From NCBI GenBank assembly GCA_021647205.1, contig JAKIVD010000013.1, forward strand, positions 1-64,000: a stretch of 64,000 bases of DNA. The letters are read 5' to 3'. This document shows, piece after piece, positions 14,033-54,928 of this stretch (positions are counted from its first letter, which is position 1; every line of letters begins with the position of its first letter). A model generated the notes under the pieces. That model made no database searches. It was not told the origin of the DNA and saw only the letters and a list, made by a program, of their open reading frames with translations. Source of the stretch: Bacteroidales bacterium (lineage in GTDB: Bacteria > Bacteroidota > Bacteroidia > Bacteroidales > F082). The position numbers and the translations under genes are program-made.

Positions 14033-14064
14033 TTTCCGGATAGGTGAATGTTGTTAGCTTGAAC

Positions 14065-14847: not shown

Positions 14848-14934
14848 TTTTCTAAATTGATGAAGGCTGGTAATATTGAATCATACAACCAGCCTTCATG
14901 AAACATATCGTAAATCAACACCTAAACAGCCGCT

Positions 14935-16269
14935 TTACTCTTTAACGAGTGCTTCGTCGGTTGGCAGGCCATGTTGGAAGAAATTGACGGCATAATAAAT
15001 TATCCCGATGGTAAACAGGGTGGCAGCGCCAATCAAAATCCAAAAATGCACTTCGATGGCTTTCTGCGCATCCATAAACGACATGCCCACTTTTCTTTCG
15101 AGGTACACCTGGGCGACCCCGGCTGCGGCAAAGGCAGTCGTCATACCAATCATGCCGATGTTGGACAACCAGAAGGCGTAATGTGCAGCCGGCCTGTCGT
15201 AAAGCTTTCTGCCTGTCATCAATGGCATGGCGTAAGTAATTATGGCAATCACAATCATGGCATAAGCGCCCCAGAAAGCAAGGTGGCCATGCATGGCCGT
15301 AATCAGTGTGCCGTGTGTCCAGATATTTACCGAGGGGATGGTGTGAGCAATACCCAGCAAACCGGCCCCGGCAAAGGAAACAATTGCCGAACCCAGTGTC
15401 CAGTACAGGGCAATTTTATTGGGATGGTTTTTCTCGCCTTTGCGGTACATCGCCAGGGCAAACAAGGCCATGCCAAGGAATGCCAGTGGTTCCAGCGCCG
15501 AGAAAATTCCGCCGACCATCAGCCAATACTTTGGCGCGCCGATATAGTAGTAGTGGTGTCCGGTACCCAAAATTCCCGAAAGAAAAGTAAGGCCTACGAT
15601 AACGTACAGCCATTTTTCTATCAGTTCCCGGTCAACGCCGGTAAGCTTAATCAAGAGGAAGGCCAGAATACCGCCCATGATCAATTCCCAAACGCCCTCA
15701 ACCCACAGGTGGACAACCCACCAGCGGAAGAACGAATCGACAGACTGGTTGTCGAACCAAACCATGCCTGGAAGGTAAAGCAGGGCAGCAAAAAACAAAC
15801 CCATTGCCAAGACCATTGCTGTGGTTGTTTTTTCTTTTCCTTTGAACAGGGTTACTAAAATAATGCCGAGGAAAAGCAATACGTTAACTACCACGAGGTA
15901 GTCCAGCGGACGTGGGATTTCAAGGAATTTACGTCCTTCCCACCAGTTAAAATGAAAGCCGATAACGGCTGTTACCCCAACAGCAGCCAAACTCCAGAAT
16001 TGCAGTTTCGCCAGGGGAACCGAAACCAGCTCGCGCTGTGATTCTTCGGGTATGATGTAATAAGCGGCACCCATGAAACCACTGAGCAACCAGACCACCA
16101 GTAAATTTTTGTGGGTGGCTGTGGCCGTGTTAAAAGGAATAAAGTCGTGCAAGCCATCAAAACCGGCATGTGCAAAACCCATGATAAAACCATAAACTAT
16201 TTGTAGCAGCAAGAGTACTATGCTCAGGGCAAAGAACATATAGGCTACTTTCTGAGATTTATATTTCAT
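14935..16269 (-). CDS. norB: Nitric oxide reductase catalytic subunit (cNOR)
   Basis: Reduces 2 NO to N2O at a heme b3/non-heme iron centre in the inner membrane. 444 residues and about 12 helices, slightly shorter than the ~465-residue proteobacterial proteins. All metal ligands expected from Pseudomonas NorB are present with a constant offset of about 20: H187 and H238/H239 for FeB, glutamates E191 and E195, E260, H327 and H329 for the hemes, and H53 for low-spin heme b. It lacks the N-terminal extension of quinol-type qNOR and has a NorC partner, so it is the cytochrome c-dependent type. The operon order is C-B-Q-D-E-F. Confidence 0.96.
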   Translation of the reverse strand: MKYKSQKVAYMFFALSIVLLLLQIVYGFIMGFAHAGFDGLHDFIPFNTATATHKNLLVVWLLSGFMGAAYYIIPEESQRELVSVPLAKLQFWSLAAVGVTAVIGFHFNWWEGRKFLEIPRPLDYLVVVNVLLFLGIILVTLFKGKEKTTTAMVLAMGLFFAALLYLPGMVWFDNQSVDSFFRWWVVHLWVEGVWELIMGGILAFLLIKLTGVDRELIEKWLYVIVGLTFLSGILGTGHHYYYIGAPKYWLMVGGIFSALEPLAFLGMALFALAMYRKGEKNHPNKIALYWTLGSAIVSFAGAGLLGIAHTIPSVNIWTHGTLITAMHGHLAFWGAYAMIVIAIITYAMPLMTGRKLYDRPAAHYAFWLSNIGMIGMTTAFAAAGVAQVYLERKVGMSFMDAQKAIEVHFWILIGAATLFTIGIIYYAVNFFQHGLPTDEALVKE

Positions 16270-33636: not shown

Positions 33637-34080
33637 TTACCCCACACCAATATCCATAAAGGCAATACCATTATTGATGTCTTCTTTCATGTCTTTGATG
33701 GTTTTCTCAGAGAGCATTTTATAAAAATCCCCGCGAAATATCTGGTAATCTTTGTGAATGGGGCAGGGCTTTTCGTCGTTGCATTCGCGCAGGCCCAATC
33801 CGCAGGTGCCGAAAAAAGTAAGGCCATCAATTGATTCGATGATTTTCAGCAAGGAGATTTCTGTTGCTTTTTCGTCCACATAAAATCCGCCGTTGGGCCC
33901 TTTCAGCGAAGTAATCATGTTTTTTCTTGCCAGCTCCTGTAGTACTTTTCCGAGGTAATGTTCTGGAAACCCGAGGTCTTCTGCAATCCGTTTTGTGCCG
34001 ACACAACGGTTGGGCGCCGCATTCACGGCCAGGTAAACCATTGCACGGATGGCGTATTCTGTAGAACTTGAAAAAATCAT
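33637..34080 (-). CDS. Rrf2-family regulator with three-cysteine cluster motif
   Basis: 147 residues. The N-terminal winged helix contains STEYAIRAMVYLAVN and RIAEDLGFPEHYLGKVLQELARKNMI, then the wing LKGPNGGFYV. Cysteines C93, C100 and C106 (C-x6-C-x5-C) match the Fe-S ligand set of NsrR/IscR-type members, whose clusters sense NO or Fe-S status. It is the last gene of a minus-strand group with DUF59, NnrS-like and DUF1858/DUF2249 genes, so a nitrosative-stress role is likely. Candidate operators are the palindrome at 34115-34124 and the inverted repeat at 36669-36694. An IscR-type role is possible, but no isc/suf genes are adjacent. Confidence 0.88.
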   Translation of the reverse strand: MIFSSSTEYAIRAMVYLAVNAAPNRCVGTKRIAEDLGFPEHYLGKVLQELARKNMITSLKGPNGGFYVDEKATEISLLKIIESIDGLTFFGTCGLGLRECNDEKPCPIHKDYQIFRGDFYKMLSEKTIKDMKEDINNGIAFMDIGVG

Positions 34081-34114
34081 TTGTTCGTGGATTTAGAGTA
34101 AATGAGCATTCATT

Positions 34115-34124
34115 CAATTAATTG
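34115..34124. promoter_or_regulatory. Palindrome upstream of the Rrf2 gene
   Basis: CAATTAATTG is a perfect 10-bp palindrome 35 bases before the Rrf2 ATG. It may be an autoregulatory site; AT-rich palindromes of this size also arise by chance. Confidence 0.3.
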
Positions 34125-34167
34125 TTCGCAAGGCGTCATTCATTATCGCAGTATGTTATACCTGTAC

Positions 34168-34205
34168 TGACGCTTCCAGGTTCTGCAAACGCTGGAAGGT
34201 CCTGC
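34168..34205. repeat. Dispersed palindromic element after the DUF59 gene
   Basis: Arms CTTCCAG (34173-34179) and CTGGAAG (34192-34198) around a 12-base centre. Read on the minus strand it is the standard unit, starting 9 bases after the DUF59 stop codon. Confidence 0.7.
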
Positions 34206-34213
34206 CGACTTTC

Positions 34214-34531
34214 CTACCCAATCGCTTCCCTTCCCGCTTCGGTAATCAGATCAGGAGTCCATTCAGGTTCCCAAACCAACTCAACTTTGACGATGTAATC
34301 GGGGTAGCTGCCCTGGATAACGACTTCCACATTCTGAAGGATGGTATCGCCCAGCGGGCAGCCACGCGTTGAAAGTGTCATTACTACATGTATCAGCTTC
34401 TCCTCTTCGTTTAAATGTACTTCATAAATCAGGCCCAGGTCAACAATGTTTACTGCCACCTCCGGATCCATCACATTTTTCAATAACTCAAATATTTTCT
34501 GCTCCTCAGGAGTTAAATTGTGAATGTTCAT
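34214..34531 (-). CDS. DUF59/MIP18-family Fe-S assembly factor
   Basis: 105 residues. DUF59 signatures are LKNVMDPEVAVNIVDLGLIYEV near 16-37, VVMTLSTRGCPLGDTI with the reactive Cys near 59, and the C-terminal VELVWEPEWTPDLITE. Proteins like this (PaaD, SufT, CIAO2) help insert Fe-S clusters. The start overlaps the end of the NnrS-like gene by 4 bases (ATGA). In this group it may repair clusters damaged by NO. Confidence 0.88.
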   Translation of the reverse strand: MNIHNLTPEEQKIFELLKNVMDPEVAVNIVDLGLIYEVHLNEEEKLIHVVMTLSTRGCPLGDTILQNVEVVIQGSYPDYIVKVELVWEPEWTPDLITEAGREAIG

Positions 34532-35817
34532 TGTACTTTTTCTTTATGGAATAAAATTTTAAAAACATTGTAATTGTATAAAAGGCCGGTTACAAAAATC
34601 AGGGCTGCGGCAATCCGAATCACCAAAACACTGGCCATCAGCATGCCGGCAACAAGAAAGATGATGCCTGCCAGGTAAGTGTAAAAATGCCGGTTAGCTA
34701 CTTTATCTGAATATAATTCCTGTGGCAATGGTACTTTTTGCTTACCGACTTTTGAATGGTATTTTTTCAGCCAGATAATAAATGGAAGTGTTTTGTAGGT
34801 TTGTCCCAGAACCAGCGAACTCAGGAAACCAAAAATTATCAGGACGCCGTAAAGCATGTCGATTCTAAGTTGTACAGCTTGAAAGAATTCCGGTTTCAGC
34901 AAAGAAGTAAGCCCGAGCAAAAGGGTAAGGGCCAGTAAAATAAAACCCATGGCTGACATCTTCATCCCCACATCCAGTTTTTTGCGCAGCCGTTTGCCGA
35001 AAGCAAGCTGGTTAAAGCGCAGGAAGAGCACAATTCCGCTGACAATCAACAGGCCCGAGAATGTCAGGAACCAGGTTTGGGGGTAAAAAGTATAGGCAAC
35101 CGAGAGCAGCACCAGGCCGCCATTAATCAGGTAATAGGCATAGGTTAGCAGCCTTTTGGGCAGTTTGTGAACGATTAAAAACATCGGCATCAGCTTGCTG
35201 GCAACGCCAATTACCAACAACAAAAACCAACCGGCCAGTCCCATGTGGGCGTGCGTTTTTAGCAATTGCAGGTGGGATGTCGAAATAAAATGCATCGAAA
35301 AATTCAATACAATGACGATGGCCAGGATGACCGTGATGACCAACCATATTACCGCAGTTATGATGAAGGTGTTTTCGATGGTCTTCCTCTCGGTTTTGGC
35401 AGCGCTTTTGATGGCATTCCATGCAAACAGGATAACGGCGAGCAACACCAAAGTTCCACCAATGTCAATCCCCATGTTGTGTCCAAAGTTAAAACTCCAG
35501 AACGAAACCGATAAAATGACAAGGCCACTGCCAAACAAAATAAAGGTAGCGATGGCCAGCTTCTCGCTGTACAATTTAACCTCCATCACCACCGGGATAA
35601 GTTGGTAAAGCGAACCAAAAATAACCATGCTTATCCAGCCCAGTACCAGCAGGTGTGTCAGGCTCAGCAGATGTGGGCTTAAATAATGCCCGACAAGGTC
35701 AGGTGCAACGAAAAACAAAATGACAGAAGCCGCAAGAAAAGCGACTGCGCCAAACGCAAAATGTGGCAACACTACTGCTGCCGATGGCGCGTTCTTTGTG
35801 CTTAATCCCGCTTGCAT
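34528..35817 (-). CDS. NnrS-like / heme-copper oxidase subunit I-like membrane protein
   Basis: 429 residues with about 12 membrane helices. Histidines in membrane segments (HLLSLTHLLVLGW near 46-58, KTHAHMGLAGW near 190-200) resemble those of NnrS and of stripped-down heme-copper subunit I homologues found in Bacteroidota. NnrS is a heme- and copper-binding membrane protein that protects against NO-derived iron nitrosyls. The gene overlaps the DUF2249 gene by 16 bases upstream and the DUF59 gene by 4 bases downstream. It lacks the full FeB/CuB histidine set of NorB, so it is probably not an NO reductase itself. Confidence 0.65.
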   Translation of the reverse strand: MQAGLSTKNAPSAAVVLPHFAFGAVAFLAASVILFFVAPDLVGHYLSPHLLSLTHLLVLGWISMVIFGSLYQLIPVVMEVKLYSEKLAIATFILFGSGLVILSVSFWSFNFGHNMGIDIGGTLVLLAVILFAWNAIKSAAKTERKTIENTFIITAVIWLVITVILAIVIVLNFSMHFISTSHLQLLKTHAHMGLAGWFLLLVIGVASKLMPMFLIVHKLPKRLLTYAYYLINGGLVLLSVAYTFYPQTWFLTFSGLLIVSGIVLFLRFNQLAFGKRLRKKLDVGMKMSAMGFILLALTLLLGLTSLLKPEFFQAVQLRIDMLYGVLIIFGFLSSLVLGQTYKTLPFIIWLKKYHSKVGKQKVPLPQELYSDKVANRHFYTYLAGIIFLVAGMLMASVLVIRIAAALIFVTGLLYNYNVFKILFHKEKVQ

Positions 35818-36632
35818 AACTTAAATATTATCAGTTTTAAATCGCCTTCACCCATTTCTTTGGAAACCCATTTGTAAGCCCTGTCTTTCAGTTCCGGCAA
35901 CAAATACTGCGGTAGTTTTTTGTGGTTGACAAAAAGTGCTTCTTCTTCGTTCAGTTTCTCCAGTTCTTCCAGGATGGTAACCATCGGCATGGGCATCTCC
36001 AAATCGCGGACATCAATTTCTTTCATCTTTCCGGCAAACTTCTCAAGTGCAAAGTCGTAGGTTAGTTCGGCTTCCTGATTTGTTTCGCCCTGCGTTTCTT
36101 TCGGCGCTGCAGCCGACTTCTCCAGGAAGGTATGTACAACGCCGGCTTCGGGTCGTTCAGTCTGGTATTCGTAACCTTTTTTCTTCAGAATATTTAATAA
36201 AGGAATCGGTTCAAAAGTATTGATGATGCGGAGGGTCTCGTCATCGTTCAGGGTCTTCAGTATTGCCATGATGGCCTCAAAAGGATCAGTGCCTCCCGCA
36301 AGTATGGGGCGCACGTCCAAGTCGATTATGCTTGCTTTTTTCATGCTCTTTTCGGTATTAGTATGTTTAAAAATTTCTGGTTCAAGCTCGTTATCACAAA
36401 TACACTCCTCTTCCACCTCAAAACCAAAGTCCCTGAGTTTGTCAATCATCACACAAACCGGGACGCCACCAATTTTTGCCGCGTCGGCAATGCGCACCCT
36501 TGGTGCCAGCATCTTGCGCAAAACAGGGTTCCGTAATTTCCTAAAATGACGGTTGATTGAGCTGATGACATCAATCACCCCTTCGTTTTCGTCAATCAGG
36601 GCAGAGATTCTTGTATTTGCATTAATTTTCAA
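35802..36632 (-). CDS. DUF1858 + tandem DUF2249 protein
   Basis: From the TTG at 36632 the protein has 276 residues. Residues ~1-70 are a DUF1858-like domain (RISALIDENEGVIDVISSIN, LRNPVLRKMLAPRVRIADAA). Two DUF2249 domains follow: IDLDVRPILAGG with FEPIPLLNILKKKGY, then EIDVRDLEMPMPMVTILEELEKL with KKLPQYLLPELKDR. DUF2249 and DUF1858 occur with hybrid-cluster, RIC/YtfE and NO-metabolism genes. The frame is open to 36650, but that first codon lies in the -7 box. First gene of a four-gene group with overlapping stops and starts. Biochemical role unknown. Confidence 0.8.
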   Translation of the reverse strand: MKINANTRISALIDENEGVIDVISSINRHFRKLRNPVLRKMLAPRVRIADAAKIGGVPVCVMIDKLRDFGFEVEEECICDNELEPEIFKHTNTEKSMKKASIIDLDVRPILAGGTDPFEAIMAILKTLNDDETLRIINTFEPIPLLNILKKKGYEYQTERPEAGVVHTFLEKSAAAPKETQGETNQEAELTYDFALEKFAGKMKEIDVRDLEMPMPMVTILEELEKLNEEEALFVNHKKLPQYLLPELKDRAYKWVSKEMGEGDLKLIIFKLCKRD

Positions 36633-36647
36633 AGTAAGAACTTTCTG

Positions 36648-36655
36648 CAAAAATA
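36648..36655 (-). promoter_or_regulatory. -7 promoter box of the DUF2249 operon
   Basis: TATTTTTG on the minus strand (TAnnTTTG), 15 bases before the proposed TTG start at 36632. Confidence 0.55.
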
Positions 36656-36833: not shown

Positions 36834-38444
36834 TTACAAGCGCGCTGTCAGGTTGATATAAAGCCGGTGGTAAATATTGGCGGTTTCGAAAATACCTTCG
36901 TAGGATACGGAAAGGGAAAGGTTTTTGATGATTCTCCAGCTCAGGTTGATGTCGCCCATCTGTTGTTTGAGCGAGGATTCATAGTATGTATAGCGGTAAT
37001 CAACGTAACGGTAAGTTAAACTGCTGTACAGTTTTCCGGGGACAAGGTCACGGGAAAGGCGCAGGCTGTAAATTCTTCCGTTCAGGTAGGATGATTCGAG
37101 GAAAGTAGCCGACAGCGTAGCAGAAGCATTGATCCACGGCACACGGCTGTACGACACATAAGCGTAAGCATTTTTAGAAGGGGAGGGGTCGTCCTTGCGT
37201 GAGCGGTAACCGGCTTTAAGACCGATGGATAAATTTCTTACCGGACGGTAATTGACCTGAAAGCGGAATCCCTGCAAGCTTTCCTGTTCAATTAAGCGTT
37301 CCACAAAACTTTTGTACGACTCGTAATAAATCAGGTTTTTCCTTGAGCTGTAGGAAAGGGAAAATGAAAGTTGCCTGATGATACGGTAGCGGAGCATCAG
37401 GTACAAATTGGTCAGGTTCAAACCTGAGCGCGGCACACTGTCCACAACCTGGTACAACTCCAATTCGGCTGTGCCAAAAAAGTACAGGTTTTTAGCCAGG
37501 GTGTTGGAATGCTGGAAATAGGCAAACCTCCTGTCTGTTTTCCCCTTGTTGGTTTGCTGAACAAACGAAAGAATGGTGCGCATTTCACGCTTATTCTTGT
37601 TTTTAAAAACATGGCCAAAATAAGCCCCGTACTGTAAAAGATTGATATTAAAACCATAATCGGTATAATCGGGACGGGTGCCCACGAAAGCCCCTACAAG
37701 TAGCGATTTAAAACTTTTGTCAATCTGTAATCCGTCGATCGCACCAATACTTGAAAGGTTGGGGTTTATTTTCCGCCCCACCAGGATATTCATGCTTTCT
37801 ACAGGTTGGTATTTTACAGCCAGGTTGTATACTTTCAGTCCGTTGAACAGGTTGTTTTTAATTTCATCCCAATTGACATTACTGTGTACAAACGACATAT
37901 AAGTTTCTACTGAGAATTTCGAGTCGGCAATATTGTTGGCTTGTAAGGATAAAGAATAGCGCATGCGCTGGTTATTCCCTCCCGCCGTATTTGACAAATT
38001 TGAGTAAGAAGAAACAGACAGCCGTCCGTTAATTTGTTGTTTGTTTACAGGATGAACAATGCTGTCAGGCGGAGGTACGGTATTGACCTGCGGAACAACC
38101 TCAGCCGTTTCCCCGACCGGTTCTTCTGATTCAGCATTTTTCGTGACGGCTGGCTTCTTTCGGGCCACCATCTTGTCATTAACTTTTAATTGTATTGACG
38201 AAAGCGGGGTGCAAACACAAGAGATTGACGAGAGGTTGTTTACCAGCAAAGCCGGGGCCAAATGACCATCCTGTAGGAAATAAAGTGTATCACCAACCGA
38301 AATATCCGCTGTTGACTTGAACTTGACATAAACATTCTGCGAGGTGATATAGGAAACAGTCCCTTCCTCTGTTTCAACAATGTTTTGTGCTTTCAGGAAC
38401 AAACCCGAAAGAAAAAAGAGTGTGATGAGTGCAAGATATTTCAT
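36834..38444 (-). CDS. Outer-membrane beta-barrel of the multiheme cytochrome operon
   Basis: 536 residues with a signal peptide (LALITLFFLSGLFLKAQ). Residues ~22-95 form a small beta domain (GTVSYITSQNVYVKFKS, SVGDTLYFLQDGHL) with two Cys in SCVCTP. A Pro/Glu-rich linker follows (~100-140). The last ~390 residues alternate amphipathic strands (RMRYSLSLQAN, RQLSFSLSYSSR, FRFQVNYRPV, NLSIGLKAGYRSR) ending HRLYINLTARL, consistent with a large barrel of 20 or more strands. It is the last gene of the operon, sharing one base with the stop of the 25-heme cytochrome gene. By position and topology it could be the pore holding cytochromes in the outer membrane, as MtrB does, but no sequence homology to MtrB is claimed. 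Confidence 0.7.
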   Translation of the reverse strand: MKYLALITLFFLSGLFLKAQNIVETEEGTVSYITSQNVYVKFKSTADISVGDTLYFLQDGHLAPALLVNNLSSISCVCTPLSSIQLKVNDKMVARKKPAVTKNAESEEPVGETAEVVPQVNTVPPPDSIVHPVNKQQINGRLSVSSYSNLSNTAGGNNQRMRYSLSLQANNIADSKFSVETYMSFVHSNVNWDEIKNNLFNGLKVYNLAVKYQPVESMNILVGRKINPNLSSIGAIDGLQIDKSFKSLLVGAFVGTRPDYTDYGFNINLLQYGAYFGHVFKNKNKREMRTILSFVQQTNKGKTDRRFAYFQHSNTLAKNLYFFGTAELELYQVVDSVPRSGLNLTNLYLMLRYRIIRQLSFSLSYSSRKNLIYYESYKSFVERLIEQESLQGFRFQVNYRPVRNLSIGLKAGYRSRKDDPSPSKNAYAYVSYSRVPWINASATLSATFLESSYLNGRIYSLRLSRDLVPGKLYSSLTYRYVDYRYTYYESSLKQQMGDINLSWRIIKNLSLSVSYEGIFETANIYHRLYINLTARL

Positions 38445-40396
38445 TACCGTATTTTAAACTGATTGTGTGTTTTGCCAAAATCTTCGCTACCTGTCGGATG
38501 GCAATCCAGACATGCAATGCTGTTGTAAACATATCCGCTCACACCATTGTGCTCACCGTCCGTATCGGCTTTGTTGTGTTCGTGGCAGTCGATGCAGCTG
38601 AAGAGGGAATAATCGCTGGGCACGGTATGGCAATCGGCACAAACATCCCATTCGCCATTGTGTTCGCCACTGTAAATCGGGAAATATTGTCCATCGTGGT
38701 CAAAGGTCGATGGTTTCCAGACAGATTCTGTATGGCACAACACGCAGTCGGTAGAAAACTGGGCCGAAGCATGTGGCGGGTCGTTGGTTTGGTTGTAGTC
38801 TTCCAAATGGCAGCCCACACAAGTATTGGGGGTGCTGTTGTAATTCCCCTCGTGGCAGTCGATGCAGTTGTTGGCAATGCTGGCGTGGGCACCATTCAAT
38901 TGATAATAATCATTGTGGTTATTAAATGTTGCCGGTTGCCAGCCTGCCTGGGTGGTATGGCAGGCCTCGCAATCGTTGGACAATCCAATGGCAAGGTGAT
39001 TTGGGTTGGTGGTCTGGTTATAATTTTCCTCATGGCATCCAGTGCAGGTGTTCGCGGTATTGTTGTAATCACCGTGATGGCAATTCGCACAATCGTTGGC
39101 GATTGTGGTGTGCGCACCGGTAAGGGCATAATAATCGTTGTGGTTGTTAAAGGTTGCCGGCTGCCAGCCAGGATCTGTTGTATGGCAACTTTCGCAATCA
39201 TCGGAAAGGCCGATTCCCACATGGTTGGGGTTGGTGGTTTCGGTATAATTTGCGTTGTGGCAATCTACACAAACAGTGGATGTCCCGGAATAACCATCGG
39301 CATGGCAGTTTTCACATTCGGCATCAGTATGCGCCCCTGTTAAAGGGAAAGCTGATGTATTGTGGTTGAACCCGTCTCCTGAGCCATTGGGATGACAATC
39401 CAGACAGGCAATACTTTCGTATATATAGCCGCCTACACCTTTGTGTTCGTCATCCATATCGTTTTTTTCGTGGCATTGCGAAGTGGTACAGGTAAACAGG
39501 GCGTAATTATCGGGGTTTGTATGGCAATCCACACAATCATTCCATTCGCCATTATGTTCTCCTGAATAAATAGGGAAATACAGGTTGTCATGTGCTGTAA
39601 AAGCGGCCGGTTTCCAGCCGGGATTAGTTGTATGGCACTCAAGGCAGTCAGTGGATAAGCCCACCTGCTGATGGTTGGGGTTTGTTGTGGCAAAGTAATT
39701 CGTCTCGTGACAGGCAAAACATTCCGAAGAAATATTCGAATAGTCATTGGGGTCTTTGTGGCACTCGGCACAATCGTTAATGGCATGTCCCTGCGTGAGC
39801 GGGAAAGTAGTGTGGGCAAAATCGGCACCCGACCAGGAGAACGCGTTCATGCGGTGGCAGATGGCACAATCGGTTGAATAATCACTTTCCACGTGGTTCG
39901 GGCTGGTTGTGGCGAGGTAATTGTCGCGGTGGCAATCGACGCACTCCACACCCACAGGGTCAAAACGCAAAAGCGAAGCCGTCAGGTGGCAATCGTAACA
40001 ATCGGCCGTGATGTGCCCTCCCAACAAAGGGAAACGGCTGTGCTGGTGAAGTTCCGTAATGTCTTCAACTATCCACGAATTGGTGTTGTGGCAACGTTCG
40101 CAGTCGAAACCGACAGTTTGCTCGTGCATGTCGGTGTGACAGCTCATGCACTCCGGTTCGGCCTCGGAAAAGACAAGGCTGCTGTGGCACGATGTACAAT
40201 TCACGTCCCGGTGTGTTCCCTGCAAGGGGAAATCTGTTATGTTATGGTCGAACGAAATGTTGTTTTTGTCAACTTTCCAGCCTTCTGAAGTATGGCAGTC
40301 CTCGCAGCTCAAGTTAAAATTTTTCCCGTGCGATGAATCGGAGGAAGGATTGAACAAGCTGACAAACAGCAGTACAATTAATGACAGTTCTCGCAT
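38444..40396 (-). CDS. 25-heme c-type cytochrome
   Basis: 650 residues: signal peptide (LSLIVLLFVSLFN) then 24 CxxCH sites plus one CTTSQCH (C-x4-C-H), so up to 25 hemes c, at roughly one per 25 residues. The sequence is built from repeats: a 75-residue three-heme unit (CESCH ... CANCH ... CTGCH) is repeated from about residue 390 to 560. A larger block (YFPIYSGEHNGEW ... ACLDCH) occurs twice, near the middle and at the C-terminus. In the first copy of that block the C-x4-C-H site replaces CIDCH. The many His-rich linkers (HNDYY, PNH) offer distal ligands. It probably acts in the periplasm or at the outer membrane, passing electrons between the 20-heme protein and the barrel. Its start overlaps the end of the 20-heme gene by 19 bases. 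Confidence 0.93.
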   Translation of the reverse strand: MRELSLIVLLFVSLFNPSSDSSHGKNFNLSCEDCHTSEGWKVDKNNISFDHNITDFPLQGTHRDVNCTSCHSSLVFSEAEPECMSCHTDMHEQTVGFDCERCHNTNSWIVEDITELHQHSRFPLLGGHITADCYDCHLTASLLRFDPVGVECVDCHRDNYLATTSPNHVESDYSTDCAICHRMNAFSWSGADFAHTTFPLTQGHAINDCAECHKDPNDYSNISSECFACHETNYFATTNPNHQQVGLSTDCLECHTTNPGWKPAAFTAHDNLYFPIYSGEHNGEWNDCVDCHTNPDNYALFTCTTSQCHEKNDMDDEHKGVGGYIYESIACLDCHPNGSGDGFNHNTSAFPLTGAHTDAECENCHADGYSGTSTVCVDCHNANYTETTNPNHVGIGLSDDCESCHTTDPGWQPATFNNHNDYYALTGAHTTIANDCANCHHGDYNNTANTCTGCHEENYNQTTNPNHLAIGLSNDCEACHTTQAGWQPATFNNHNDYYQLNGAHASIANNCIDCHEGNYNSTPNTCVGCHLEDYNQTNDPPHASAQFSTDCVLCHTESVWKPSTFDHDGQYFPIYSGEHNGEWDVCADCHTVPSDYSLFSCIDCHEHNKADTDGEHNGVSGYVYNSIACLDCHPTGSEDFGKTHNQFKIR

Positions 40397-42000
40397 CTGA
40401 ATTTGTTTATTTTATATTGAACAAAAGTTGTCCCGCCCCTTTGCTTTTCTTTATGACAAGCTGAGCAGGCTACGTTTATATGTTTTCCGTCAAGCGGGAA
40501 GTGGGTTTTGCTGTGGTCAAATTTACCGGCCTTCCAATTGTTAAAGTCGTGACATTTCATACAATCGGTTTTTCCGTCGATTTCAAACTGGCCGAAATGC
40601 TTGTCGTTGTGGCATTCGTTGCAATTGCCAGTTAAAGTGCCAAAACGCTGCAACTGCTGACCATTGGCAAGGGTTTCAAAATGGCAGGCGCGGCAAGTTG
40701 GGTTTTGGTGTTTGCCTTCTAATTTGTATCCTGTTTTGGCATGGTCAAAGTTGATACTGGCCCATTTGTCCACAGTGTGGCAGCTTTTGCAAGCGGCTTG
40801 AGGATAATATTTTTTATCGATGTATGATTTGTGGATGTCATCGTGGCAGTCGGCACATTTTTCGCCGATATTATTGAATGCCCATTTCTCCTGTTTTTTG
40901 TGACAGGCGAAACACGGTGTTGCGAGGTGTGCGCCTTCCAGTTTAAAGCCACTACTGTTGTGCTTTTCGATACTGAAGCTGAATGATGTGAAGCCCGCAG
41001 TGCTATGGCATTCGGAGCAATCCGGGCTAACGCCTTGTTTCGTAAACTGGCCTTTGTGGTAATCATTGTGGCAATCGGTACAGCGGTTGTGCCGGATATG
41101 GTCTGTAAACTTTGTTTTGTGACATTTCTTGCACTCAACATCCCTGTGCTTGTTTTCCAATTTGAAGTTGGTTTGGTCATGGTTGAAGGACGACATTGAC
41201 TTGATGACATGAAATGATTGTTCGCTGTGGCATTTGGTACAGTTTTGGCCAAACTTGTTGTTGTGGACATCTTTGTGGCAATTGGTACAGGACGCGAAGG
41301 CAATACCTGAAAACTCCTGAAACTTTTTCCCGTTTAGAGTGGTGGTTTTATGACAAAGCCGGCATTCAACATCCCGGTGCTTTCCATGCAGATGAAATTT
41401 TGCGTTGTCGTGGTTGAATGCTGCTGCTGGCTTGAATTTCTGGAAGCCATGACACTGTTTACAATCAGTTGAAAGCGTTTTTTGGTGGTAATCGTCATGG
41501 CAGTTCAGGCAATCGGTATTCAGGCCGAGAAAAGTATTTTTGTTTTTTTTGATTTCTTTGTCACCAATGAATTCCGCTTTGTGGCATTTTTCACACTGCA
41601 ATTTTTCGTGGGCACCCAACAAATCATATCCGGTGAGCGCATGTTTAAAATTGTCTTTGTCGAAACGGATCATTTGAAATTTTCGGCCATGGTGTTCGCT
41701 GTGGCAACTGGTGCACTCCTTGCCGCGAATGTCTGTTGAAACGTGGTAACCTTTCTGTCGGTCGATTTGTTTTTTCAGCGCCTTGTGGCAGGCCAGGCAT
41801 TTTTCGTTGGATACCTTTTCGCCAAGTACATGGCACTTGGTACAATTCGACATACCTTCGAGTGCAGCATGGGCATACGAGAGGTCGCCGGGTGACAATT
41901 GGGCAAGGCTGCTGTTTGTGTACAGGAAATACACAGACAAAACAAAAAACAAACGGACACCCGCTTTCAACAAGCTCATGAAGTTACTTACCTGTTTCAT
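40378..42000 (-). CDS. 20-heme c-type cytochrome
   Basis: 540 residues with a signal peptide (RLFFVLSVYFLYTNSSLAQ). Twenty CxxCH sites are spread evenly from residue ~52 to the very C-terminus, where CENCH are the last five residues. Repeating KHRDVECRLCHK and GKHINVACSACHK segments resemble class III (c3) and cytochrome c7-type modules. Lys-rich, so basic overall. It follows the FAD/Fe-S gene by 1 base and overlaps the 25-heme gene. Likely a periplasmic electron wire accepting electrons from the membrane cytochrome b-like protein. Confidence 0.93.
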   Translation of the reverse strand: MKQVSNFMSLLKAGVRLFFVLSVYFLYTNSSLAQLSPGDLSYAHAALEGMSNCTKCHVLGEKVSNEKCLACHKALKKQIDRQKGYHVSTDIRGKECTSCHSEHHGRKFQMIRFDKDNFKHALTGYDLLGAHEKLQCEKCHKAEFIGDKEIKKNKNTFLGLNTDCLNCHDDYHQKTLSTDCKQCHGFQKFKPAAAFNHDNAKFHLHGKHRDVECRLCHKTTTLNGKKFQEFSGIAFASCTNCHKDVHNNKFGQNCTKCHSEQSFHVIKSMSSFNHDQTNFKLENKHRDVECKKCHKTKFTDHIRHNRCTDCHNDYHKGQFTKQGVSPDCSECHSTAGFTSFSFSIEKHNSSGFKLEGAHLATPCFACHKKQEKWAFNNIGEKCADCHDDIHKSYIDKKYYPQAACKSCHTVDKWASINFDHAKTGYKLEGKHQNPTCRACHFETLANGQQLQRFGTLTGNCNECHNDKHFGQFEIDGKTDCMKCHDFNNWKAGKFDHSKTHFPLDGKHINVACSACHKEKQRGGTTFVQYKINKFRCENCH

Positions 42001-42001
42001 A

Positions 42002-43336
42002 TTACTTATGCTTTAAAACTGTTTCCCCGAATTTCTTGGTAATTTGCAAACCAATCTTCTGTAAAAACTGGGTGGGCAGTTCCCCGCCGGCAAAAATATA
42101 AACAAGGTCATTTGGCAAAGGTTGTCTGCTGTGGTCAAGTGTTGAGCCAAGTATAACCTGATCCTCACTTATGGCAAGCAGGTTTGTATTGAAACGCATT
42201 TCTATTTTTCCCTGTTGAATGGCGGCATTGATCCTTTCGCTGTTTTTCGGTTTTATCCGTTGAAAAGCCTCTTTGCGGTAGGAGAGTGTCACCTTATTTT
42301 GGTCGGCGAGCAACATGGCCGACTCCACGGCAGAATCGCCACCACCGACCACCAGGATGTTTTTTCCTTCAATATCTTCGGGTTCCAGTAATTTGTAAGC
42401 AACCTTTTCTGAGTTTTCCCCGGGCACATTCAGCTTTCTCGGTGTGCCCCGCCGACCAATGGCAAGCAGAACACGGTGGGCGGTGATGTCGGTTTCCTTG
42501 TTGGTACTTATCTTAAAATGCCCGTTCTCAGCAACAATCGATTCAACTTTTGTCTTCTCTTCTATTTTAATCCCGTTCTTGTCAAGGGCCCTGTTCCAGA
42601 GGTCAAGCAAGTCAGCCTTGCTGGTTTCGTACAGTTTTACTTTACCAACCAGTGGCAGGTTCATGGCAGAGGTCATAACTATTTTCGACCTGGGGAAGGT
42701 AAAGACCGTCCCGCCGAGCGAATCCTGCTCCAGGGTAATGCAGCTTAGTTTGTGCTTTTTTGCCGTTAATGAAGCGGATATTCCAGCCGGTCCGGCACCA
42801 ACAACCAAAAGGTCGAAATCGGCCCCGTGCTTTTTCTTTACAGATTTTTCAATGTTTTCAACTGCCTGTTTGCCTTGTTCAACAGCATTCTTGATCAGTC
42901 CCATGCCGCCCAGTTCACCGGCAATAAAAATACCTGGAATATTGGTCTCAAAATTATAATTGACATGGGGGAGTTCAACTCCGCGCTTTTCCGTGCCAAT
43001 GCAAAGTGAAATGGCTTCGGTAGGACAGGCATGGAAACAGGCCCCGTGCCCGATGCAGTGCGAAGCATTGATGGTTGTTGCTTTTCCGTCCTTGATGCCA
43101 AGTATGTCTTTTTCGGGACAAGCGGCAATGCAGGCGCCTGTCTGGATACAGTCGTTGATATCGATGACCGGGTGCAGTGAAACCGGCTCATGAATGCCTG
43201 CTATTTTCGCAACCTTAATTTTTTCGGCAACAATCCGGGAGGCTTTTTTTTGCCTGCGCAGATAAATAATGACCACCAGCAAAATGAGGGCGAACACAAC
43301 TCCGTAAATAGCAATCTCTTCTAATAGAATTTCCAT
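42002..43336 (-). CDS. Membrane-anchored FAD/NAD(P) oxidoreductase with ferredoxin domain
   Basis: From the ATG at 43336 (right after the upstream stop) the protein has 444 residues. One membrane helix at about 9-26 is followed by a ferredoxin-like domain (60-112) and a thioredoxin reductase-like flavoprotein. FAD motif GAGPAG is at 180-185 and a second Rossmann motif VVGGGDSAVESA near 325. The block GIFIAGELGGMGLIKNAVEQG, usually C-terminal in such flavoproteins, lies at 135-155, between the Fe-S and FAD parts. Both ferredoxin motifs lack the second Cys: C63, C69, C73 and C94, C100, C104, with Thr and His at the missing positions. It would link cytoplasmic NAD(P)H or ferredoxin to the cytochrome b-like protein encoded just upstream. 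Confidence 0.88.
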   Translation of the reverse strand: MEILLEEIAIYGVVFALILLVVIIYLRRQKKASRIVAEKIKVAKIAGIHEPVSLHPVIDINDCIQTGACIAACPEKDILGIKDGKATTINASHCIGHGACFHACPTEAISLCIGTEKRGVELPHVNYNFETNIPGIFIAGELGGMGLIKNAVEQGKQAVENIEKSVKKKHGADFDLLVVGAGPAGISASLTAKKHKLSCITLEQDSLGGTVFTFPRSKIVMTSAMNLPLVGKVKLYETSKADLLDLWNRALDKNGIKIEEKTKVESIVAENGHFKISTNKETDITAHRVLLAIGRRGTPRKLNVPGENSEKVAYKLLEPEDIEGKNILVVGGGDSAVESAMLLADQNKVTLSYRKEAFQRIKPKNSERINAAIQQGKIEMRFNTNLLAISEDQVILGSTLDHSRQPLPNDLVYIFAGGELPTQFLQKIGLQITKKFGETVLKHK

Positions 43337-43337
43337 T

Positions 43338-44207
43338 TTAAAAAATCCAACGGTAGCCAAGAGTGAGCGTTACAATAACATGAATAATCATGATAACGAG
43401 CATAATAATGGCAAAAGGCAAGTGGGCAACATGCCAGTGCTTAAATAAATTCTGCATGGTTGTCAGGCGATCGATGCGGCGGTTGAGCGAAATTTCGTTG
43501 TTCACCAGTTTTACGATTTTTCTGGTTTCGGCCCGGCTCAGTTTATTCCGCTTCAAAACAGATTTTATTTTGTAGAGGTTCTGCTTGTCTTCAATGTATT
43601 TTTTTGTATATCTGATAAAAATATTTTTGTGGTAAACATCGACTCTTTTTTTTGTTGACTCCACGATGGTGGAGTAACTCTCCTCATTCAGCTTGTAATC
43701 GTTACGAAGTATCCCGCCAATATCTGTTTTCATTTCCCTGACCTCGCTTAAGCTAAGTTCGCGCCCTTCGATAGTTCTTGGTATTTGTATGTATATAAAA
43801 CGTCCGATTACCCCACTGGCAAACACGGCCACCATGCTCCAGAAACTGATTGAGACCAATCCGCCAAATTTAAAGGAAGTGTGAAAAAGTACCAGGATGG
43901 GGCCCAGTGTGCACAAGAAGATATGAAATTCGAGCCAGTGCTTCAACAGTCCCCAACGGGAAAAAGCCTTTGCCCTTTTCCTTAACATGTAGGTGCCAAC
44001 CCCGATGAACATGAACAAAGAGCCAGCAATACCCAGACCGTGCCCGATGGCACCACTTGACTTCATTGCTTGATAATCAGGATGGTAAAAGCGCTCTTCG
44101 ATACTGGTATTGTAAAATGAGCTGCCTTTAAGAATCAGTAATAAGGTTACGACGATGACAATGGTGGTCATTGTTGCAATGAAGAGGAAGTGCGTTGTTC
44201 TCGACAT
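43338..44207 (-). CDS. Membrane cytochrome b-like protein of the multiheme operon
   Basis: 289 residues with about five membrane helices: 8-27, 54-74, 88-110, 118-140 and 262-284. Histidines inside or near the helices (H56, H90, H95, H109, H257, H259, H262, H276) could bind b-type hemes, as in di-heme cytochrome b557/NarI-like proteins. A long charged cytoplasmic segment (~145-255) separates helices 4 and 5. It is the first gene of the five-gene operon, with its own promoter at 44242-44270, and its stop lies 1 base before the next ATG. It probably moves electrons across the inner membrane to the multiheme proteins, perhaps through quinol. No exact family was recognised. Confidence 0.75.
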   Translation of the reverse strand: MSRTTHFLFIATMTTIVIVVTLLLILKGSSFYNTSIEERFYHPDYQAMKSSGAIGHGLGIAGSLFMFIGVGTYMLRKRAKAFSRWGLLKHWLEFHIFLCTLGPILVLFHTSFKFGGLVSISFWSMVAVFASGVIGRFIYIQIPRTIEGRELSLSEVREMKTDIGGILRNDYKLNEESYSTIVESTKKRVDVYHKNIFIRYTKKYIEDKQNLYKIKSVLKRNKLSRAETRKIVKLVNNEISLNRRIDRLTTMQNLFKHWHVAHLPFAIIMLVIMIIHVIVTLTLGYRWIF

Positions 44208-44241
44208 TCTTAATTCAAATGAGGTTTTAGTTAAGCAACTA

Positions 44242-44270
44242 CAAAAGTATAAAAACAGTCATAATTCAAA
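44242..44270 (-). promoter_or_regulatory. Promoter of the multiheme cytochrome operon
   Basis: On the minus strand TACTTTTG (44249-44242) is a TAnnTTTG match, and TTTG (44270-44267) sits 17 bases upstream as a possible -33 element. The 5' untranslated leader would be about 28 bases. Confidence 0.55.
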
Positions 44271-52934: not shown

Positions 52935-53738
52935 ATGAAAAAGCCTGAATTAATGATGGTGATTTTTATTGCCGCACTCTTTTTCGGAAGTGCCTGCAAC
53001 AAAACCGAAGACCCGGAAAACAAAGCGGGGAAATTGCATTTGTATTTTCAACATGAAATTGACAGTGTCCCTATTGAGTTCGACACCCTGAAATATACCA
53101 ATGCAGCAGGAAACCCCTATCTTGTGACGGAAATTCAATATTTTATTTCGGATGTTGTTTTGTACAGGAACGACAAAACACAGCAATTGCTTGATGCAGG
53201 AGAGGACATCCATTATGTGGACACCGACTTGCCTGAAACCCTGACGTACAAACTAACTGACGACATCGTCCCCGGGACTTTTGACAGCATCAGTTTTACT
53301 TTTGGAATTAATGAGGTCAAAAACCAGTCGCAGCTATTTGTGAACCCGCCGGAATCCAATATGTTTTGGCCTGAACTCCTTGGGGGAGGCTACCATTACA
53401 TGAAACTCAACGGAAAGTGGAAAGATACCGGTGATACAATCAGGCCATTCAACTTTCACATGGGTATCGGACAAATTTATGATACCGCAACGGGTGAGAT
53501 AACGGCTTATGTGCAAAACTATTTCAGGGTTTCGCTACCCAATTCATCGTTCACTATTTCCAATGCGGAAGAACTTGCCCTCACGCTTGTGATGGATGTA
53601 AACCAGTGGTTTGAGGCCCCGCATAATTATGATTTCAATGAATGGGGCGGTATGATCATGCAGAACCAGGCTGCCATGCAAACAGCCAGGGAGAACGGTC
53701 ACAATGTATTTAACCTGCTTAAGAACAATTCTAAATGA
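52935..53738 (+). CDS. MbnP-family copper-binding lipoprotein
   Basis: From the ATG at 52935 the protein has 267 residues and a lipoprotein signal ending FFGSAC, so it is anchored by a lipidated Cys. The mature domain has KLHLYFQHEID, EIQYFISDVVLYR, SISFTFGIN and a Trp/His-rich stretch (NMFWPELLGGGYHYMKLNGKW, then FNFHMGIG), as in MbnP. Known MbnP proteins bind copper after a Trp is oxidised to kynurenine by the partner di-heme enzyme MbnH. Here the MbnH-like gene overlaps the stop by 4 bases (ATGA). A near-consensus TATCCTTG at 52867-52874 may be the promoter; the upstream frame start at 52872 lies within it. Confidence 0.88.
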   Translation: MKKPELMMVIFIAALFFGSACNKTEDPENKAGKLHLYFQHEIDSVPIEFDTLKYTNAAGNPYLVTEIQYFISDVVLYRNDKTQQLLDAGEDIHYVDTDLPETLTYKLTDDIVPGTFDSISFTFGINEVKNQSQLFVNPPESNMFWPELLGGGYHYMKLNGKWKDTGDTIRPFNFHMGIGQIYDTATGEITAYVQNYFRVSLPNSSFTISNAEELALTLVMDVNQWFEAPHNYDFNEWGGMIMQNQAAMQTARENGHNVFNLLKNNSK

Positions 53739-54928
53739 AAAAGTGCATAAAGAATGGCCGGGGGAAAAACAAGGCGCTTGAGATGAGTCGTTCCTTTTTG
53801 TTTTGGCTGGGTCTTGCGTTTCTTTTTTTTAGTTCCTGTCGCGAAAAGAACACGCTTGAAGATGATTTCAAGCCGACTCCCTACCAGATTGATATCCCTT
53901 TTGGATTTCCCACCAAATTGAACATACCGGAAGACAATCCCATGACAGTGGAAGGGGTAAAACTGGGCAGGTTTTTGTTTTACGATGGCCGCTTGTCGGG
54001 GCGCACGCACCCCGACTCTTTAATGTCCTGCGCTACCTGCCACCGGCAGGAACGTTCGTTTGAGGCTGGTGTTGACCACCCCGATTTTCCCGGTGGTTTC
54101 CCACATGGCTTAAGCGGCGTGCAAACCCATCATGTGATGTTGCCCATGATAAACCTTGCTTGGAACCTCAACGGTTATGGGTGGAGTGGCTTTTTGTACC
54201 CGGAAAACGAGATGCCTTATTTTCGGAACATTGAAGATTTTGTCCGCCTTGCTGTTATGGCAAAAGATGAAATTGACGGGGATACCTCCCGGACAAAAGC
54301 TCTTATCCAGTCTATACCGGGTTACCCCGAGTTGTTTCGGAAAGCATTTGGCAGCGAGCAGGTAACTTTCACCAACATCGGCAAAGCCATCGCGCAATTT
54401 GTCAGAACATTGATCTCGGCCAACTCCAGATTCGACAAATACATGAAGGGGGAAGTGCAGCTCTCCCAATCCGAATTAAACGGTTACGTCTTATTTACGA
54501 CCGAAGAGGGAGCCGACTGCTTCCACTGCCATGGCGGGTTTGGGAACCCGCTTTTTACTACCCACCTGTTTTACAACAACGGAAAGGACAGCTTGTTCAC
54601 CGATCCCATGGACCGGTTTTTGGTTACGCAAGACCCCATGGATCGTGGAGCCTACAAAGCAACAACCCTGCGCAATATTGAACTTACCGGACCCTATATG
54701 CACGACGGACGGTTCGCCACACTCGAAGAAGTCATCGGGTTTTATTCACAGGGGCTGAAACCATCACCTTCCGTCAGCCCGTTGATGCACCACATAAACG
54801 ACGGCGGGATACAACTAACCCCTTCCGAAAAAGAGGACCTGCTTAATTTTATTAAAACCTTGCGGGATGATGAGTTTCTGTCGAATCCCGACTTTGCCAA
54901 ACCTGACAAGTTTCCTGATGAGGATTAA
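53735..54928 (+). CDS. MbnH-like di-heme cytochrome c peroxidase-family protein
   Basis: 397 residues from the ATG overlapping the MbnP stop, or 381 from the ATG at 53783, which gives a tidier lipoprotein signal (FLFWLGLAFLFFSSC). Two heme c sites are present: CATCH (near 97 of the long form) and CFHCH (near 265). FLFYDGRLSGRTHPDSLMSCATCHRQERSF and YMHDGRFATLEEVIGFYSQG are MauG/CcpA family blocks. In MbnP/MbnH pairs such enzymes form a bis-Fe(IV) state and modify a Trp of MbnP rather than detoxify peroxide. Tight coupling to MbnP supports that reading. Confidence 0.9.
   Translation: MKKCIKNGRGKNKALEMSRSFLFWLGLAFLFFSSCREKNTLEDDFKPTPYQIDIPFGFPTKLNIPEDNPMTVEGVKLGRFLFYDGRLSGRTHPDSLMSCATCHRQERSFEAGVDHPDFPGGFPHGLSGVQTHHVMLPMINLAWNLNGYGWSGFLYPENEMPYFRNIEDFVRLAVMAKDEIDGDTSRTKALIQSIPGYPELFRKAFGSEQVTFTNIGKAIAQFVRTLISANSRFDKYMKGEVQLSQSELNGYVLFTTEEGADCFHCHGGFGNPLFTTHLFYNNGKDSLFTDPMDRFLVTQDPMDRGAYKATTLRNIELTGPYMHDGRFATLEEVIGFYSQGLKPSPSVSPLMHHINDGGIQLTPSEKEDLLNFIKTLRDDEFLSNPDFAKPDKFPDED

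Follow-up and report, generated by a model that had tools for sequence, protein, structure and literature searches.

A five-gene Bacteroidota operon pairing a constant with a stepwise variable multiheme cytochrome: a probable trans-envelope electron conduit of the PCC3 kind

A stretch of 64,000 nt from a Bacteroidales bacterium (F082; assembly GCA_021647205.1, contig JAKIVD010000013.1, positions 1-64,000), here called the window, carries an operon of five minus-strand genes spanning 44207-36834, in the order cytb-flav-cyt20-cyt25-barrel according to inspection of open reading frames (ORFs) and coordinates. The operon probably encodes a Bacteroidota form of the PCC3-type electron conduit, crossing the whole envelope, which would lead electrons from NAD(P)H to an extracellular acceptor. 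What is most striking, beyond the original prediction made from the letters of the window, is the contrast between a constant 20-heme protein and a partner extended by a triheme rail, together with the presence of flavin/iron-sulfur (Fe-S) genes beside remote relatives of cytb. The components are the following (aa, amino acids; TM, transmembrane).

43338-44207, minus strand: cytb, a 289-aa inner-membrane protein with five predicted TM segments
42002-43360, minus strand: flav, with a TTG start, an N-terminal TM anchor (residues 16-34), 4Fe-4S-type motifs (71-112) and a Pyr_redox_3/Pyr_redox_2 domain (182-442)
43025-43150, minus strand: the flav Fe-S motifs CIQTGACIAACP and CIGHGACFHACP, with Thr in the second-Cys position of the first and His in that of the second
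40378-42000, minus strand: cyt20, a putative 20-heme cytochrome c (20 CxxCH)
38444-40396, minus strand: cyt25, a putative 25-heme cytochrome c (24 CxxCH and one CxxxxCH)
39536-40306, minus strand: head of cyt25, hemes 1-10, with spacing near-identical in most relatives
38447-39535, minus strand: rail of cyt25, five triheme units of ~75 aa each
36834-38444, minus strand: barrel, a 536-aa predicted outer-membrane beta-barrel protein
36840-38036, minus strand: barrel domain of 22 strands (residues 137-535, AlphaFold2)
38160-38372, minus strand: small beta domain near the N-terminus of the same protein (residues 25-95, AlphaFold2)
44242-44270, minus strand: promoter-like match upstream of cytb, solely a match to a Bacteroidota-type consensus

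The original prediction had described a cytochrome b-like protein, a flavoprotein, two cytochromes and a barrel on one strand with 1-base gaps or overlaps of 1-19 bases, and this layout was recovered: with the in-frame ATG at 43336 taken as the start of flav, the joints measure +1, +1, -19 and -1 bases. In the relatives L046-L125, for which start codons were picked mechanically, the median gaps at the four joints are -13 (n=79), +18 (n=75), -22 (n=70) and +9 (n=62). The 45 heme sites foreseen were likewise found by motif counting (20 in cyt20 and 25 in cyt25, where the single CxxxxCH lies at residue 303), and a stop-to-stop scan of the window revealed one other frame with at least two CxxCH, carrying two. 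No cysteine occurs outside the heme motifs of either cytochrome, since the total cysteine numbers are 40 and 50, and the C..CK motif is absent from all five operon proteins. A Pfam scan detected c7/c3-type cytochrome domains in cyt20 and cyt25, and Pyr_redox_3 and 4Fe-4S domains in flav. A terminal reductase within the operon was rejected because the ORF list and Pfam reveal none among the five genes, as had been predicted.

The two cytochromes behave very differently among relatives. Heme sites were counted in ORFs clear of contig ends (109 of 113 cyt20 and 109 of 122 cyt25), with gene fragments, second copies and paralogues included. Among the complete cyt20 ORFs 92 have 20 sites, seven have 23, three have 19 and seven pieces have fewer; the window protein terminates on its final heme-binding His (40378), and in 79 of 99 relatives 0 or 1 residue follows the last CxxCH. 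The complete cyt25 ORFs carry from 9 to 73 sites, and in 103 of the 109 this number is one more than a multiple of three (1 mod 3). The commonest number is 13 (13 ORFs), and a 10-site form lacks three head sites; at 12 of the 96 loci with a complete cyt25 the longest copy has at most 13 sites (a broken ORF in one case). The largest rail, in locus L161 (2507-8068), belongs to a protein of 1853 aa with 73 heme sites and comes from a relative within the same family. The head is the near-constant part: its first 10 hemes are spaced 36 16 16 34 19 25 32 17 25 in the window and near-constantly 36 16 16 34 19 25 32 16 25 in relatives, with local shifts of a few residues, and rail units in relatives have spacings of ~31-37, 14-22 and 19-29.

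The same contrast appears between closely related loci, compared by the longest cyt25 per locus in pairs that are not independent of each other. In pairs with flav 90-97% identical (n=5) the cyt20 site numbers are equal in all and those of cyt25 in 40%, and at 60-70% identity (n=1962) they are equal in 84% and 7%, respectively; the single pair above 97% identity has equal site numbers. For example, L095 differs from L102 and L103 (flav 93% identical) by 34 versus 49 cyt25 sites, and L047 from L048 (92%) by 28 versus 22. Rail unit pairs with at least 90% DNA identity occur in 9 of 77 relatives with at least 22 sites; between the rail units of the window DNA identity is at most 70%, and there has therefore been no recent duplication there. 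The simplest reading of these sequences is that whole triheme units are gained and lost, with the caveat that most loci come from metagenome assemblies, in which errors in assembling repeats may contribute to differences in rail length. Taken together, the data suggest that cyt20 behaves as a fixed-length span and cyt25 as a free extension of a fixed head.

Both cytochromes match PF14522 (Cytochrome_C7) with 77 bits (cut-off 24.8). The TIGR04257 model (nanowire_3heme) matches 4 of 25 scanned cyt25 members (best 3e-16) and falls under its cut-off in the cyt20 of the window. As single sequences neither cyt20 nor cyt25 had a match in the PDB at E 0.01; a cyt20 profile of 29 rows (29 of 59 sequences) found the c7-type chain 3ov0_A at E 1e-8 and, weakly, 6r2q_A at E 0.005. 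The former is presumably GSU1996. The listed molecule name of 6r2q_A is unrelated to Mtr; 6R2Q is named as an Mtr complex elsewhere (PMC12133095; this and all other papers are cited for portions of their text). The cyt25 alignment included 25 of 66 sequences and that of its head 21 sequences. The genome under study has one cyt25, other cyt25 matches in it being cyt20. Elsewhere in that genome (contig C35, L002 2151-3578) a 14-heme ORF cut by the end of the locus adjoins a Ni_hydr_CYTB-type cytochrome b.

In the window cyt20 has a net charge of +23 and a hydrophobic N-terminus, which would be a signal peptide, and the protein could form a wire spanning the periplasm; cyt25 has a net charge of -72. 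Among 99 cyt20 (20 or 23 sites) and 96 cyt25 (at least 13 sites, 1 mod 3) the median charges per 100 aa are +3.7 and -3.0, with overlapping ranges (-11.3 to 6.9 and -14.9 to 2.2, respectively). An acidic rail protein and a basic span would fit electrostatic docking, although the ranges of the two families overlap.

A unique operon was rejected as the set recurs in many relatives. Among 119 loci (80 kept out of 216 relatives reported and 39 from further searches) all five genes are present in 87, and flav occurs in each of the 92 loci having both cytb and barrel; the gene set is thus kept together, the outcome that the original prediction had called for. The order cytb-flav-cyt20-cyt25-barrel is found in 81 loci (four with an extra cyt25-like gene behind) and cytb-cyt20-cyt25-barrel-flav in 11, in a count for which ORFs that overlap others, such as cytb in L145 and L147 or flav in L149, were kept. 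The 32 loci short of five genes comprise 21 that reach a contig edge, four with a split gene (L078, L108, L109, L130), three without a blastp-recognised barrel (L152, L154, L155), L138 with cytb and a TPR gene only, and L162-L164 with weak cytb relatives only. In 17 loci cytb is followed by a gene of ~200 aa for a membrane-anchored TPR protein, presumably similar to assembly factors of the NrfG/CcmH type. Relatives of an Emticicia GW-domain protein lie near the operon, on either side, in 25 of 119 loci (e.g., L069, L085, L098; also L176 19713-20483).

At the genome level cytb relatives were detected in 15 of 41 close genomes and, at E 0.001, in 100 of 395 Bacteroidota genomes (own included), 40 of them with E at most 1e-40. 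The other 60 matches are weak and mostly cover only the region around residues 54-146. The barrel profile matches 36 of the 395 genomes, of which 35 are within the 40 with strong cytb and one, outside them, is weak (E 4e-4). In 58 genomes of one Bacteroidota family (f35) short proteins, mostly of 190-250 aa, match cytb around residues 54-146 only and would be relatives of this membrane protein.

The barrel protein, expected to be a barrel in the original prediction, was modelled by AlphaFold2 from 53 of 54 family sequences with a mean pLDDT of 85 and a pTM of 0.63. VIA-align places the model among outer-membrane barrels (best 5fp2_B, Z 19.4, root-mean-square deviation 4.3, 331 aligned), and an unplugged 22-strand outer-membrane barrel is predicted. 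No Pfam or NCBIfam family matches it at E 0.1, hence none of the MtrB/PioB porin family in Pfam; MtrB is also absent from the 50 barrel rows listed in the fold comparison, a result that excludes no relationship.

According to Pfam and hydrophobicity, flav combines its TM anchor and two Fe-S motifs with a thioredoxin reductase-like FAD/NAD(P)H domain, and the solved structures closest to it in sequence belong to thioredoxin reductase/YpdA-type enzymes. Its identification as the bacillithiol disulfide reductase YpdA was rejected (TIGR04018, 161.6 bits versus a cut-off of 339.9); the Cys of the GAGPC loop, which is taken to be typical of YpdA, is replaced by Ala in flav. The alignment included 27 of 72 sequences, and both motifs were found in 112 of 116 parsed entries. 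In all 112, motif 2 carries His where the second Cys would stand; at the corresponding place motif 1 has Thr in 77 entries, Ser in 22, Cys in 12 and Ala in one. The motifs also occur in 13 of 15 second-order or weak loci, motif 1 having four Cys in 11 of the 13 and motif 2 the His in all 13. A motif 2 of three Cys and one His is a rule of the family by sequence comparison, because the His occurs in all parsed relatives and in all 13 second-order loci, and it is in motif 1 that the branch of the window departs from the second-order branch. The protein would be a NAD(P)H-oxidising donor on the cytoplasmic side.

The cytb protein has five hydrophobic segments and a basic loop of 130 residues; to judge from the charge pattern, this loop would face the cytoplasm, as would the body of the flavoprotein. 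Six histidines (H56, H95, H109, H259, H262 and H276) are invariant across the 63 aligned rows (63 of 71 sequences). By the hydrophobic segments and positive charges H95/H109 belong to TM3 and H262/H276 to TM5, with a distance of 14 residues within each pair; by analogy, because of these two TM His pairs, the protein probably binds two trans-membrane b hemes (H95/H262 and H109/H276). SGxxG occurs at 131 within TM4 and again at 51, and WX3HX13H at 91 (TM3) and 258 (TM5). In homologues of at least 250 aa and at least 33% identity (112, with four weak ones set apart) SGxxG is present in 112 of 112 and both WX3HX13H motifs in 105, the remaining seven retaining two HX13H. At E 0.1 no Pfam family matches cytb, including the ferric reductase/NOX membrane domain (PF01794); cytb may work like that domain despite the missing match. 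Against the PDB the cytb and barrel profiles gave chance-level matches only.

Flavin/Fe-S genes also accompany more distant members of the cytb family. The full set is present on plasmid pEMTOL02 of Emticicia oligotrophica DSM 17448, just downstream of ccsA, with 23 and 40 sites (tblastn). Remote cytb relatives (22-23% identity over 213-249 columns in the three compared) occur on proteobacterial plasmids, in clusters not shown to be PCC3; five of 14 plasmid records were inspected, one Alteromonas record representing seven. In Sphingobium pMSHV the remote cytb adjoins a protein of 825 aa that combines Pyr_redox, cNMP-binding and 4Fe-4S domains, and in Methylophaga, Alteromonas and Acetobacter it adjoins an FNR-type FAD/NAD/2Fe-2S protein. 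Since three flavin/Fe-S architectures thus adjoin one membrane-protein family, this neighbourhood suggests that NAD(P)H through flavin is the usual donor of the family, in competition with the quinone model of He et al. Three of these plasmid modules (L178 7962-11445, L179 6657-9379, L177 10064-13418) have three genes each, an FNR-type flavoprotein gene standing with a short relative of cytb and a third gene that is multiheme or hypothetical, and such modules adjoin hydrogenase genes in Alteromonas, copper-resistance genes in Acetobacter, and heavy-metal and ccm genes in Methylophaga. In L162 and L164 weak cytb relatives lie near ORFs of 763 and 835 aa with weak similarity to flav and near multiheme ORFs, perhaps as a second, different module of Bacteroidota.

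If the heme sites are occupied and the cofactors and topology are as the motifs suggest, cytoplasmic NAD(P)H would reduce the FAD of the anchored flavoprotein, whose Fe-S clusters would pass electrons to the two b hemes of cytb and on to the periplasmic face. Fixed-length cyt20 would take them over the periplasm to the conserved 10-13-heme head of cyt25, seated in or on the unplugged 22-strand barrel, and the triheme rail outside would hand them to an extracellular acceptor (mineral, humics, electrode or other cell). Folded triheme units could in principle pass through a 22-strand pore. NAD(P)H is proposed as the cytoplasmic donor because of the linked flavin/Fe-S gene, and this donor favours the outward direction. 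The strongest argument for a rail outside is its freely varying length, set against the constant length of cyt20, together with the 12 loci without a copy above 13 sites. A more specific version can be put forward only tentatively: a quinone-bypassing, NAD(P)H-driven wire, in which a split NADPH-oxidase-like pair (the flavin/Fe-S protein and diheme cytb) would feed a fixed periplasmic span and an extracellular, through-barrel heme antenna evolving by gain or loss of whole triheme units, its reach beyond the cell tunable across Bacteroidota.

Several points, taken up in this and the next two paragraphs, count against the conduit as drawn. PCC3 is a class known by prediction and the operon itself is known from sequence alone. 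The AlphaFold model of cytb is weak (pLDDT 75) and a fold search with this weak model returned helical-bundle look-alikes only, with no usable match. In one genome (G334) the barrel lies ~20 kb from cytb, at whose locus (L138) a TPR gene is the only companion. Six of the 109 cyt25 ORFs do not follow the mod-3 rule, although two of these are the halves of a single broken ORF. For the PCC3 inner-membrane protein He et al. propose exchange with quinone, not NAD(P)H (PMC5566968). A quinol-fed conduit on that model, with cytb exchanging with menaquinone and the flavoprotein as an accessory (e.g., in repair or regulation), appears unlikely. The two HX13H motifs are common to quinone-active b cytochromes (PMC5566968), and the invariant H56 and W91/E93 could form a quinone site; however, flav accompanies cytb and barrel without exception and across two gene orders, it has a TM anchor and Fe-S motifs, and other flavin/Fe-S architectures adjoin remote members of the cytb family.

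The flow could also be inward. Electron uptake from Fe(II), metallic iron or a partner cell into the flavoprotein or quinone would agree with the presence of PCC3 in some Fe(II) oxidisers (PMC5566968), with the rise of the inner-membrane gene of one PCC3 copy of Sideroxydans CL21 during Fe(II) oxidation (PMC12442390), and with three COX1-family genes in the host, one at 14935-16269 beside NorQ- and VWA-type genes. Transfer of electrons to NAD(P)+ would, however, run uphill and against the membrane potential, as general bioenergetics dictates. Both PCC3 clusters of Sideroxydans ES-1 are down-regulated on Fe(II) (PMC8788666), which speaks against uptake and also fits poorly with the outward conduit; uptake is given rather little credence here.

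The main gap in this scheme is the way in which cyt25 would reach the outside. Counted from the first Cys of the final motif, the cyt25 ORFs listed extend for another 7-37 residues (93 in the broken L124), too few for a long sorting domain at the C-terminus; spare cysteines are absent in 81 of 109 ORFs, and the window protein lacks a lipobox. Export by means of such a domain, or in the form of a lipoprotein, was dropped on these grounds. The head profile gave weak matches to various c cytochromes (best 1z1n, E 5e-5) with no MtrA chain or 6r2q among the 24 listed, so that an MtrA-like head is unsupported by sequence. The lack of room for a sorting domain, and the capacitor roles proposed for giant cytochromes (PMC11495043), would suit storage of electrons in the periplasm, or the supply of a soluble reductase there, the barrel having another role. 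This seems improbable: barrel co-occurs with strong cytb in 35 of 36 barrel genomes, the operon has no reductase, and a rail of up to 73 sites would fit badly across the periplasm, given the constant length of cyt20.

In PCC3 a porin is accompanied by two multiheme cytochromes, a large one in the periplasm and a giant one outside the cell, and by a membrane protein of ~300 aa (PMC5566968), so that the original prediction is not supported in taking the arrangement to be undescribed; set against PCC3 by description, the operon is a Bacteroidota variant of that kind and not a new kind. The inner-membrane protein of PCC3 and PCC4 has five TM segments, SGXXG on TM4 and WX3HX13H on TM3 and TM5 (PMC5566968), and the cytb of the window agrees in length (~300 aa), segments and motifs. 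The predicted 22-strand barrel corresponds to the porin (PMC5566968), cyt20 to the large periplasmic cytochrome (21, 24 or 27 sites in Gallionellaceae; PMC10734462) and cyt25 to the variable extracellular one (10-35 sites in Gallionellaceae, PMC10734462; median 34 and up to 85, PMC5566968); cytochrome repeats occur in both, with 26-27 aa per heme here and 22-39 reported there. The operon differs in having 20 or 23 sites instead of 21, 24 or 27, a fixed head whose rail follows the 1 mod 3 rule almost strictly, a 22-strand barrel of 536 aa compared with up to 42 predicted segments in most PCC3 porins (a usual, not a defining trait), an integral NAD(P)H-type flavin/Fe-S gene, and a host among Bacteroidota where the 2017 list holds mostly Proteobacteria.

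Other systems resemble it in part. PCC4 shares the inner-membrane signature, and its subgroup II has an Fe-S gene (pfam13247) upstream and other redox proteins, but it lacks an extracellular cytochrome and its cytochromes have 4, 5 and 10 hemes (PMC5566968). Pcc of Geobacter and others (OmbB-OmaB-OmcB) combines an 18-22-strand predicted porin with two multiheme cytochromes, but the periplasmic ones have 5-14 hemes and the portions cited describe no cytb and flavoprotein pair (PMC4245776). MtrCAB is likewise a barrel with a multiheme conduit, to which cyt20 has the weak profile link through 6r2q_A. MtrB has 26 strands (PMC12133095), unlike the barrel here, which has no Pfam match. Multi-domain c7-type wires (3ov0) and TIGR04257 proteins also repeat a c7-like triheme unit in one chain; here the repeat lies within an envelope operon and is highly variable in copy number. 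The anode-enriched Bacteroidetes_1 cluster, matched by description, places Bacteroidota multiheme genes beside a predicted barrel, but has seven genes, six of them called multiheme (PMC8258643). Variable heme number as such is not new, because variability and repeats are reported for PCC3 (PMC5566968, PMC10734462), and sludge has yielded Bacteroidota cytochromes of very large size (PMC11495043).

No account of the five-gene set with flavoprotein was found in the portions of open-licence papers covered, which is weak evidence. The combination with a flavoprotein donor, singled out in the original prediction, stands insofar as no such donor was found in the PCC3 literature covered, while the rest of the set matches PCC3 (PMC5566968). 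A fixed head, a mod-3 rule and a contrast with a constant partner were not found in the portions covered on PCC3 and giant cytochromes. Within this literature, the linked flavin/Fe-S gene, the fixed head with a triheme-stepped rail against a constant cyt20, and the plasmid-borne set in a named type strain are apparently new.

The single promoter of the original prediction fared less clearly. A match to TTTG-N17-TATACTTTTG, taken to be the Bacteroidota-type promoter consensus, lies 34 bases before cytb; the pattern has 8 matches in the window versus 3.6 expected, one of them internal to flav (42091-42119), so that a single promoter is plausible, not established. Among relatives the 250 bases ahead of the gene contain the motif for 6 of 109 cytb (0.7 expected from shuffles), 0 of 112 flav, 0 of 107 cyt20, 0 of 103 cyt25 and 1 of 75 barrel genes; it is missing upstream of the operon in most relatives. 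Elsewhere in the window, 12278-16269 encodes a COX1-family protein (444 aa), a NorQ/CbbQ-type AAA protein and a VWA protein, resembling a nitric oxide reductase cluster. On the 3' side of the operon, on the same strand, 33637-36650 encodes a DUF1858/DUF2249/TusA-like protein, a weakly COX1-like protein of 429 aa, a SUF-type assembly protein and an Rrf2 regulator, possibly a nitric oxide-response group. A di-heme cytochrome c peroxidase (CCP_MauG, 397 aa) is encoded at 53735-54928.

If the proposed conduit is true, about one tenth of the sampled Bacteroidota species (40 of 395 with strong cytb, 35 of them also with barrel) would hold a self-contained envelope electron route, in a phylum better known for polymer degradation. 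The constant/variable pair of cytochromes would be a natural ruler with which to ask what determines how long a cytochrome wire is. What feeds the membrane protein of PCC3 and PCC4 is a question previously left open, to which the linked flavoprotein would give a testable answer. The plasmid-borne set of E. oligotrophica DSM 17448, a named type strain, would make the system experimentally accessible.

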